Part shown: positions 7,183 to 35,445 of the stretch, piece after piece
Layout: every line of letters begins with the position of its first letter
Numbering within the stretch: position 1 is the first letter of the stretch
Assembly: GCA_012728095.1 (NCBI GenBank)
Contig: JAAYFU010000024.1
Span: forward strand, 1-64,000
Reading direction: 5' to 3'
DNA: 64,000 bases
DNA from: Clostridiaceae bacterium
Lineage (GTDB): Bacteria; Bacillota; Clostridia; DSM-8532
Made by a program: the position numbers and the translations under genes
Notes under the pieces: generated by a model
Seen by the model: the letters and a program-made list of their open reading frames with translations, nothing else
Database searches by the model: none
Told to the model about the DNA's origin: nothing

Positions 7183-8943
7183 TTATTCGTATTCCTTGTC
7201 CTGCAGCGCGTCATATCCTTCTTCACCGGTGCTTATTCTTATGACATTTTCAACATCGTAAATAAAGATTTTTCCATCTCCCATATTGCCGGTATATAAT
7301 GCTTTCTTAACCGTATCAACCAGCACCTGGGTGGGTATCTTACACACAACAATGTCTACCTGAACTTTAGGAAGAAGCCTTGTTTTTACCGGCACGCCGC
7401 GGTAATATTCGGTATGTCCTTTTTGCATTCCATAACCAAGCACATTGGTAACAGTAAGTCCTGTAATGCCTATTCTATCAAGAGCAGCCTGCAAACCAGG
7501 GAACTTCTCCTGGTTTGTGATGATGGTAACCTTTGTCATCTTTGCCCCGGGACGTGCCTTATTGACAACAGGAATGGCAGCTTCAGGGGACACAGTGCCG
7601 GGAGAAGGTTCAAACGCTTCAACAGTACTTATTGACGCAGCCTTGTCTACAGTGCCGTTACCTGTAGCCATTATTGGGGCTACGATGGCAAAATCGGGAT
7701 AAGCCGAGTTGCCGTGCTCGCCGATATCAAGACCTTGGATTTCTTCTTCAAGGCTGACACGAATTCCGATTGTCTCTTTAATCAGATACCATACCAAAGA
7801 AGACGAAGCAAATGTGAATATGCCTACCGCGATTATACCAATGATTTCTACTCCCAGCAGTGAGAAACCGCCGCCAAAGAATAATCCGTTAACCGTGGAG
7901 AGACTGGTAACCCCTTCCTGGGCGAAGAGCCCGACGCAGATTGTCCCGAAAACTCCGCAAACCAGGTGAACCGAAGTTGCGCCAACCGGATCATCAACTT
8001 TTATCCGGTCAAAAAACAGTACTGCAAATACTACGATAATGCCGGCTATTGCGCCTATAACAAGAGAACTTGCGACACTCACATAAGCGCAGCTTCCGGT
8101 GATGCCCACAAGACCCGCCAGACAACCGTTAATGGTCATGCCAAGATCCGGCTTTCCAATGAAGATCCATGACGTAGCGGTGGCGGTAAGTACAGCAGCA
8201 ATTGCTGCGGTATTGGTTGTTACAAGGATATGCACAACATCTCCAGGGTTTTGAAAACTCATGGTAGACCCGGGATTAAAACCGAACCATCCGAGCCACA
8301 GAATGAAAAGACCTAAAAATGCCAAAGACATGCTATGACCGGGAATGGCCTTCGGTTTACCGTCTTTATCATATTTTCCGTAACGCGGACCAAGTATAAT
8401 GGCTCCGGCCAAAGCTGCCCAGCCGCCTACAGAGTGGACCACGGTATCTCCGGCAAAATCCAGAAATCCAAGGTTGGCCAGCCAGCCCCCTCCCCAAATC
8501 CAGTGCCCTACAATAGGGTAAATGACAAGGGTCAATATAAAGGAAAACACAATGAAGGAAATGTACTTAACCCGCTCTGCAACTGCTCCAGATACAATGG
8601 TTGCCGCGGTGCCGCAGAAAACCAGCTGGAAAAAGAATTTTCCCCAGAATGGTACATTTGATGTGAGAGTATCCTTGTAAAAATCCAAATTGGAATTATC
8701 CAGGATAAACAATTCCTTTGTCCCGACAATCGGGTTGTCTCCACCAAACATCAATCCCCAGCCCAGAAGCATGAATCCAAGAGAAGAGACCGCAAATACG
8801 ATAAAGTTTTTTGACAGGATATTGACCGTGTTTTTTGATCTTGCAAATCCGGATTCGACCGCCCCGAAACCGAGATTCATAAAGAAAACCAATACGGCTG
8901 CCAACAGTACCCAAAGGGTATCAACGATCATTGTAACATTCAT
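7183..8943 (-). CDS. amt: Ammonium transporter with fused C-terminal P-II domain
   Basis: Membrane ammonium channel of 586 aa. Residues 1 to about 400 give an 11-helix Amt/MEP/Rh channel with the family motifs GHWIWGGGWL, DFAGDTVVHSVGGWAALAG and GFNPGSTM. A flexible Pro/Ala/Thr linker of about 70 residues leads to a complete P-II signalling domain. That domain has the T-loop (GHTEYYRGV), LPKVQVDIVV, GDGKIFIYDVE and RISTGEEG. P-II proteins normally bind Amt in trans and block it; here the regulator is tethered. The T-loop position that is uridylylated in enteric GlnB is not a tyrosine (GVPVKT in place of GAEYMV), so regulation by ATP/ADP/2-oxoglutarate is more likely. AGGAGG lies 9 bases before the ATG. 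Confidence 0.93.
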   Translation of the reverse strand: MNVTMIVDTLWVLLAAVLVFFMNLGFGAVESGFARSKNTVNILSKNFIVFAVSSLGFMLLGWGLMFGGDNPIVGTKELFILDNSNLDFYKDTLTSNVPFWGKFFFQLVFCGTAATIVSGAVAERVKYISFIVFSFILTLVIYPIVGHWIWGGGWLANLGFLDFAGDTVVHSVGGWAALAGAIILGPRYGKYDKDGKPKAIPGHSMSLAFLGLFILWLGWFGFNPGSTMSFQNPGDVVHILVTTNTAAIAAVLTATATSWIFIGKPDLGMTINGCLAGLVGITGSCAYVSVASSLVIGAIAGIIVVFAVLFFDRIKVDDPVGATSVHLVCGVFGTICVGLFAQEGVTSLSTVNGLFFGGGFSLLGVEIIGIIAVGIFTFASSSLVWYLIKETIGIRVSLEEEIQGLDIGEHGNSAYPDFAIVAPIMATGNGTVDKAASISTVEAFEPSPGTVSPEAAIPVVNKARPGAKMTKVTIITNQEKFPGLQAALDRIGITGLTVTNVLGYGMQKGHTEYYRGVPVKTRLLPKVQVDIVVCKIPTQVLVDTVKKALYTGNMGDGKIFIYDVENVIRISTGEEGYDALQDKEYE

Positions 8944-8976
8944 GAATAAGGACCTCCTTAAAATAAATTAAGGCAT

Positions 8977-9016
8977 GTATTTCATTACTGCATCCGAAGA
9001 TGCAAATAATAAATAC
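8977..9016 (-). promoter_or_regulatory. Leader hairpin with UUCG tetraloop upstream of amt
   Basis: On the minus strand a TGCATC-TTCG-GATGCA tetraloop hairpin is extended by ATTA/TAAT and GTATTT/AAATAC pairing with one bulge and a small internal loop. It lies about 30 bases before the amt start, close to the ribosome site, so it could affect translation or mRNA stability. Confidence 0.6.
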
Positions 9017-9190
9017 ACGCCTTTGTGCGCATTCAGTTTTGAACATGAATTATCTTGCCAGGCTTCAGTATTCAATCGGTAAATTATTAATATTAGTCGG
9101 TAAAAGGCGGAACCTCACGCATATTACCACGTATTTGAAAAGGAACAGTCATATCACTCAATAATCCTCACCCTTTCTCCATAAAATAAT

Positions 9191-9229
9191 AGCAAGGGCG
9201 CTTGGGTTTGTACCCACAGCGCCCTTGCT
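9191..9229 (-). promoter_or_regulatory. Strong 5' hairpin at the start of the amt leader RNA
   Basis: Perfect 11-bp stem AGCAAGGGCGC/GCGCCCTTGCT enclosing a second TGGGT/ACCCA stem. On the amt strand it is followed by ATTATTTTAT, so it resembles a terminator or attenuator. It begins only a few bases downstream of the predicted transcription start, about 250 bases before the gene. Between it and the next hairpin (9017-9190) I recognise no known riboswitch. Confidence 0.65.
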
Positions 9230-9239
9230 GTTGTGGTAT

Positions 9240-9268
9240 ATTATAACTCGGGTTGATTTCTTTGTCAA
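9240..9268 (-). promoter_or_regulatory. Consensus sigma-A promoter for amt
   Basis: On the minus strand TTGACA and TATAAT match the consensus exactly with a 17-bp spacer. Transcription would start near 9233 and run left toward amt, giving a leader of about 290 nt. The rest of the intergenic region up to 9456 contains no gene that I can see. Confidence 0.85.
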
Positions 9269-34979: not shown

Positions 34980-35197
34980 AATATTTTCCTCATTTTATAT
35001 ATTCACCAGTAATCTATGCTGTAAAGCAAATAAAAGAAAACGGATTTAAACAAAAATACTCGTATTGACTGAATCTCGGAAAATAAAAATGCCGTAAGGA
35101 AGAAAAACAGTGAAGAACGAACATATTGCCTGTTTTGGGGCTTTACTTTTATTTGAATCTCGTTTAAAATTTATTTTAATTGCATAATACAAAAGCT

Positions 35198-35445
35198 ATG
35201 AAGAGAAGAAGTAGATCAGAGCGTTGTCATTCAGAGAGCATCCGGTTGGTGAAAGGATGTTGATAGCCTGATTCGAATACATCTCGGAGCTGCTGCCTGA
35301 AAATTACAGTAGGGTAAGATGGGGGCGCCCAATACAGCGCATGAGTGTGTTTGCACTTATTGAGGGAAATTCTGCGAAGAATTTCCGAACCAGAGGTGGT
35401 ACCGCAATCTTTTGCCCTCTGTTCCTATTGGAACAGGGGTTTTTT
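35198..35445 (+). promoter_or_regulatory. Tyrosine T-box leader
   Basis: tRNA-sensing leader in front of tyrS. Visible parts are the AGTA element near 35210, a stem I with the specifier loop (GAATAC, codon TAC for tyrosine at 35278-35280), and the conserved T-box AGAGGTGGTACCGC at 35392-35405. A terminator follows (CTCTGTTCC/GGAACAGGG plus T run, 35417-35445). The UGGU bulge would pair with an uncharged ACCA end. Uncharged tRNA-Tyr should favour the antiterminator and turn on tyrS. Confidence 0.93.

Follow-up and report, generated by a model that had tools for sequence, protein, structure and literature searches.

Nitrate or amide is the signal in two of the described ANTAR systems, those of NasR and AmiR. 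The RNA targets of ANTAR proteins, as described in the available parts of two papers, are hairpins with a hexaloop bearing A at position 1 (A1) and G at position 4 (G4), the hairpin overlapping an intrinsic terminator (PMC3369931; PMC8934654). In the eut system one terminator is governed by two hexaloops lying 5–12 nt apart, and a longer linker abolishes antitermination (the same parts of PMC3369931 and PMC8934654). The nasF and amiE leaders, read by NasR and AmiR, are likewise hexaloop antiterminators, with dual hairpins and from Proteobacteria (PMC3369931, in part). A single hexaloop with G4 on a stem was proposed from structure as the minimal binding motif in PMC8934654, which was the only paper found in the accessible portion of the literature on ANTAR with a single hexaloop. 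ANTAR RNAs have also been predicted before nitrogen genes, ammonium transporters included (Ramesh et al. 2012, PMC3369931, in part), and Clostridium NitR is an ANTAR protein of a GS-GOGAT cluster that is thought to be an antiterminator (PMC4676874, in part). The passage on NitR in the latter paper names no RNA target before amt, and no description of the amt leader analysed here was found in the accessible portion of the literature on ANTAR, glnA, nitR and nif in Clostridium.

The leader lies on the minus strand of the window (the whole stretch of 64,000 nucleotides analysed, from an uncultured member of the Clostridia), upstream of a gene encoding Amt (PF00909) fused to PII (PF00543), with its ATG start codon at 8943. 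A preliminary description, made from the sequence alone, had reported an exact TTGACA-17-TATAAT promoter and, about 4 nt past the expected start, a strong hairpin with an inner stem. Both were recovered: TTGACA occupies 9268-9263 and TATAAT 9245-9240, with 17 bp between them, this being the sole 12/12 sigma-70-type match within the 5 kb scanned, and the hairpin was found at 9229-9191 with a minimum free energy of −31.7 kcal/mol (z −7.39; as good in 0 of 200 shuffles). It is directly followed by ATTATTTTAT at 9190-9181, again as described. Folding against shuffled sequences gave z −6.17 for the entire 293-nt leader and −31.8 (z −5.45) for its last 92 nt. The UUCG-capped hairpin placed by the same description before the ribosome site is present, about 165 bases from the first hairpin, but the UUCG (8998-8995, on the inner stem) is merely the top of a longer terminator-like hairpin, which is followed by AATTTATTTT, AAGGAGG and the ATG. 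The observed promoter, hairpins and leader are confirmed as real, and the layout is as follows.

9240..9268, minus strand: sigma-A promoter TTGACA-17-TATAAT (sequence scan; similar hexaloop spacing in relatives)
9216..9231, minus strand: antiterminator hairpin 1, ACAGC[AAGGGC]GCTGT, ANTAR-type hexaloop 9226-9221 (−5.4 kcal/mol)
9181..9229, minus strand: terminator-like hairpin 1 (9229-9191) with T-rich tail (9190-9181) (folding, match to model R1)
9015..9028, minus strand: antiterminator hairpin 2, GCAC[AAAGGC]GTGT, hexaloop 9024-9019 (−2.4 kcal/mol)
8960..9023, minus strand: terminator-like hairpin 2 (about 9023-8970, UUCG-capped) with T-rich tail (8967-8960) (folding, match to model R1)
8953..8959, minus strand: Shine-Dalgarno sequence AAGGAGG of amt (read directly from the sequence)
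7183..8943, minus strand: gene under control of the leader, an amt-PII fusion of 586 aa (Pfam PF00909 and PF00543)

Both long hairpins are versions of the same module, a small C-G-closed hexaloop hairpin overlapping the 5′ arm of a terminator-like hairpin. The two hexaloops, AAGGGC on a 5 bp stem and AAAGGC on a 4 bp stem, carry A1 and G4 on stems of at least 3 bp, and by sequence the single-hexaloop minimal motif, in the form given in the available part of PMC8934654, thus occurs twice in the window. With R1, a covariance model of the module, the first module matched at G000:C76:9182-9233 (E 7.6e-8, the module itself being among the model rows) and the second at 8957-9031 (E 0.0093). The likeness to the EutV targets of Enterococcus faecalis eut, as far as PMC3369931 and PMC8934654 were available, lies in the A1/G4 hexaloop, the short stem and the overlap with the terminator 5′ arm, and the earlier 13-nt eut consensus AGCAANGRRGCUY closely resembles AGCAAAGGCGCTG of the window. 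Unlike eut, where paired hexaloops serve one terminator, there is one hexaloop per terminator here and two terminators stand in series; no partner hexaloop was found 15–40 nt upstream of either module of the window. At −5.4 and −2.4 kcal/mol the antiterminator hairpins are weak compared with the terminator at −31.7 kcal/mol, so that they would need a bound protein to persist.

The amt loci compared came from three sources, namely 32 family genomes, relatives found by leader DNA, and named genomes; the last provided 80 loci, of which the leaders of 15, those from Clostridia, were examined. The module was present in 21 of the 27 amt leaders examined, and 14 of these 21 contained two. In the resulting 35 modules, all with a C-G-closed hexaloop carrying A1 and G4, the closing C-G pair and A at position 2 were invariant (35/35), neither having been used as a selection criterion. 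Loop positions 3, 5 and 6 varied (AAAGGC, AAGGGC, AATGGC, AACGAT), and the 3′ arm of the terminator changed in step. The stem covariation score was 0.706 as against 0.250 in shuffled sets (0/500), and versions slid along the alignment gave at most 0.228; the covarying stem pairs were AGC/GCT, AAC/GTT, GGC/GCC and CAC/GTG. The rows of the aligned set had been selected for A1, G4 and a stem of at least 3 bp, which inflates the percentage of paired cells but not the variety of pairs. Position was conserved as well: the hexaloop lay within 45 nt of the best −10 box in 17 of the 27 leaders (shuffles: mean 0.72, maximum 6), mostly 11–16 nt past it, with distances of 20 in L027 and 37 in L032. The alignment of relatives' leaders proposed in the preliminary description thus yielded both stem covariation and positional conservation.

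The remaining six of the 27 amt leaders had no A1/G4 module near amt. Three of them (L020, L023, L024) showed a G1 variant of the loop after the promoter, and in L030 a GAAGGC loop was seen by eye. In L021 the module stands before the upstream glnN, the first gene of the operon, and in L026 no module was seen in the amt leader.

An A..G.. hexaloop partner 15–40 nt upstream was absent from 34 of the 35 modules, with one weak candidate in the remaining one; where the hexaloop lies close behind the −10 box, the RNA starts almost at its hairpin, with no room for such a partner. Among 92 module-like matches in the loci examined, which are not leaders alone and include some reverse readings of the same palindromic hairpin, eight C-G-closed upstream partners were counted against 1.2 expected by chance. 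This excess arises partly from the tandem modules of G003 and G013, whose spacing is 55–60 nt; close C-G-closed partners (18–24 nt) were seen at three loci only (L056, L240, L245), and the canonical dual-hexaloop form may exist elsewhere. The loops of tandem modules are 55 to more than 200 nt apart, as against the 5–12 nt of the eut hexaloops in the available descriptions. The RNAs predicted by Ramesh et al. (2012), in the part of that paper at hand, share with the modules the nitrogen-gene theme and the overlap with a terminator hairpin, but the search model used there needs two adjacent hairpins, which the modules here lack, and the dual-hairpin nasF and amiE leaders differ in the same way from these single-hexaloop modules. 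With no close partner and two modules in series, the amt leader is not a member of the class by the dual-hairpin definition. That it fits the single-hexaloop minimal motif and would work like an ANTAR target appears to be the best explanation of its sequence.

The module is not confined to amt. R1 was searched in 21 genomes and matched at E ≤ 0.05 in 19. In the window's own genome (G000) a second module, GAAAC[AAAGGC]GTTTC with a terminator, precedes glnN, identified as GSIII by Pfam (G000:C8:9089-9140, E 8.9e-5; locus L194, 4897-7141, minus strand). In relatives R1 located the module before asnA-glnN, before a glutamate-synthase-like (gltB-like) operon and before nifH followed by PII genes; the other loci read added gdhA, glnA, asnB and glnN, and in further families the module was found before amt, glnN and asnA. 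Gene names were assigned by Pfam for examples and otherwise by reading the beginning of each translated protein. The genes carrying the module are genes of ammonium assimilation. In one relative (G003:C34; L212, 2382-3775, minus strand) the module stands before nifH and PII-like genes, which suggests that nitrogen fixation genes could also be under ANTAR control there. Three R1 matches were set aside as chance-like or unexplained: one with the loop AGGTGT (G000:C47), one whose loop begins with T (G013:C16) and one with no nitrogen gene recognised nearby (G019:C6). Two loci, L196 (G001:C18) and L197 (G011:C148), have identical module sites and nearly identical neighbouring gene starts, which may reflect mixed bins or very close strains.

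A NitR-like ANTAR protein was detected in 17 of the 32 family genomes, namely in 12 of 13 with amt and in 5 of 19 without it (p 3e-4). It was present in all 12 amt-containing family genomes other than the window's own, and in G004, one of the five genomes with ANTAR and no amt, the leader and the amt start lie at a contig end. Among the named Clostridia with this Amt an ANTAR protein above the Pfam cut-off was found in 15/15, compared with 2/10 genomes of other phyla. At class level R1 matched at E ≤ 1e-4 in 26 of 62 genomes with ANTAR and in 4 of 56 without (p 1.3e-5), a comparison (n = 118) that takes the ANTAR and R1 searches as covering the same genomes according to their labels, with genomes lacking matches not all listed and one of the 62 (G079) below the Pfam cut-off. 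R1 matches at this threshold without ANTAR occurred in three further class genomes (G043, G070, G103), two of them before amt.

In most loci read the ANTAR gene is directly downstream of glnA, so that the relatives show a glnA-nitR arrangement comparable with the GS-GOGAT cluster of Clostridium NitR (PMC4676874, in part); in G016 the gene adjoins amt and diverges from it. The receiver of EutV is phosphorylated, according to the partial sources at hand, whereas Asn is aligned with the phosphorylated Asp in five of five NitR-like proteins of the relatives (L130, L131, L133, L134, L135), and the receiver domain of one such protein scored 27.1, below the Pfam cut-off of 30.2. The Asn and the weak receiver score suggest that the NitR-like protein would sense a signal other than phosphorylation.

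Taken with the A1/G4 hexaloops, the covariation, the terminators, the nitrogen regulon and the ANTAR co-occurrence, the attenuation by an ANTAR-type antiterminator suggested in the preliminary description is well supported, and the leader very probably consists of two serial transcription attenuators of the ANTAR type, each with a single hexaloop.

The regulator was sought in the window's own genome, as that description had proposed, with a negative outcome: no ANTAR domain was found at E ≤ 1e-3 (best 14 bits, E 0.1), nor was NitR found by a full-length search, so that the genome shows no counterpart of the Clostridium protein of PMC4676874 (in part). Its neighbours in relatives, glnA of the GSI type, a GXGXG glutamate-synthase-like protein and dapF, are also missing from the assembly, which comprises 82 contigs at 99.87% completeness. 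Either the assembly has a gap where the ANTAR gene lies, or the leader has become an orphan: its modules would have evolved as ANTAR targets, the regulator would have been lost, and the leader would now be decaying or leaky, with constant terminator read-through. We consider the orphan reading rather unlikely, though it is the strongest rival. The joint absence of ANTAR, glnA-GSI and dapF at such completeness speaks for it, as does the absence of dapF from six others of the 12 genomes searched (98–99% completeness), which makes a lineage-wide loss plausible; a true loss of the regulator gene block may have taken place in some lineages. The seven genomes without dapF (G000, G001, G002, G005, G012, G024, G030) are all at least 98% complete, and a lysine or cell-wall pathway difference is a possible reason for this absence.

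The leader itself gives mixed signs of decay. Loop 1 (AAGGGC) departs from the AAAGGY of other family leaders, and the T-tail of its terminator scores 3.39 against 4.91 in the nearest relative; yet the T-tail scores of the window terminators fall within the range of relatives with ANTAR, loop 1 keeps A1, G4 and the A at position 2, both switches can still fold, the promoter is perfect, and 82 contigs leave room for a gap. The change in loop 1 is matched in the 3′ arm of the terminator and the glnN leader of the same genome is intact; both speak for a leader that is in use now or was so until recently.

If the terminators were controlled by a riboswitch responding to a small molecule such as glutamine or ammonium, this would account for the length of the leader (about 290 nt) and for the short stretches between the modules (9035-9185, minus strand), GGTGAGGAT, GATATGCC and GGAGCTTCGC, that are conserved in the genus. 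This second mechanism of the preliminary description, a small-molecule-sensing RNA, is very improbable. The Rfam covariance-model search that it had called for matched no family: no riboswitch or T-box model of Rfam 15 reached the gathering score in the leader or in the relatives' leaders, and the sub-threshold matches were to microRNA and sRNA models, chance-like and typical of any long hairpin. By alignment and RNAalifold the stretches between the modules showed no clear protein frame and no clear fold, RNAalifold giving just five weak pairs, and in G052 this region is nearly absent with both modules kept. The sole gathering-score Rfam match in the window was a T-box leader at 35189-35422 on the plus strand (RF00230, 125 bits).

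Even less probable is peptide-coupled attenuation, in which an upstream reading frame of about 19–22 codons, with a TTG or ATG start near 9161-9150, would drive terminator 2. The ribosome-site-like GGTGAGG before the frame, and a similar frame start seen by eye in G011 and G009, agree with it, but G031 and G019 have not kept the frame and G052 lacks it, and lying after terminator 1 it cannot act on that terminator. It was rejected as coding, not being conserved as a protein. That the promoter is simply constitutive, with a stabilising hairpin at the 5′ end that looks like an ANTAR site by chance, is just as improbable, for common as terminator-like hairpins are (82 of 915 had some A..G.. hexaloop, the closing pair disregarded), positional conservation, covariation, regulon and ANTAR co-occurrence stand against it.

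For the serial ANTAR-type attenuators, the promoter, terminators, hexaloops, covariation, regulon and co-occurrence come from sequence and genome comparison, and from these we infer that a protein binds, in which direction the system responds to nitrogen, and that the organism has the regulator. Polymerase would start at the consensus promoter, and the first approximately 16 nt of RNA could fold as the AAGGGC hexaloop hairpin. Left without protein, the RNA would be drawn into the terminator (−31.7 versus −5.4 kcal/mol) and transcription would stop about 50 nt in; a NitR-like ANTAR protein holding the hexaloop hairpin would block formation of the terminator. Polymerase would then meet the second copy of the switch (AAAGGC), immediately ahead of the ribosome site of amt, so that production of Amt would require an active ANTAR protein, presumably at times of nitrogen limitation. 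Glutamine synthetase III, whose leader in the same genome has the module as well, would be made along with Amt.

The new elements, for which this is the best explanation of the sequences, are that the UUCG hairpin would be a second attenuator and that the single-hexaloop form of the module is probably spread over Clostridia. The leaders suggest that ammonium uptake in these bacteria may be controlled after transcription initiation, by nitrogen status. More tentatively, and with less than even confidence, a nitrogen regulon of Clostridia (amt, glutamine synthetases, asnA/B, glutamate synthase, gdhA, nifH) could be governed by attenuators with one hexaloop each, often arranged in series, which would be read by an ANTAR protein that lacks the receiver phosphorylation site and senses nitrogen otherwise, e.g. 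through PII, the Amt-PII fusion or glutamine synthetase. If this were true, a single hexaloop would be a design that nature uses for antitermination, in contrast to eut with its requirement for two loops. R1 offers a search model for sites likely to escape dual-hairpin models, and the modules would constitute a concrete set of RNA targets for the NitR-like ANTAR proteins encoded beside glutamine synthetase in many Clostridia. They would also provide a natural test of whether one hexaloop suffices for antitermination, as structural work proposed for binding and as eut does not use.
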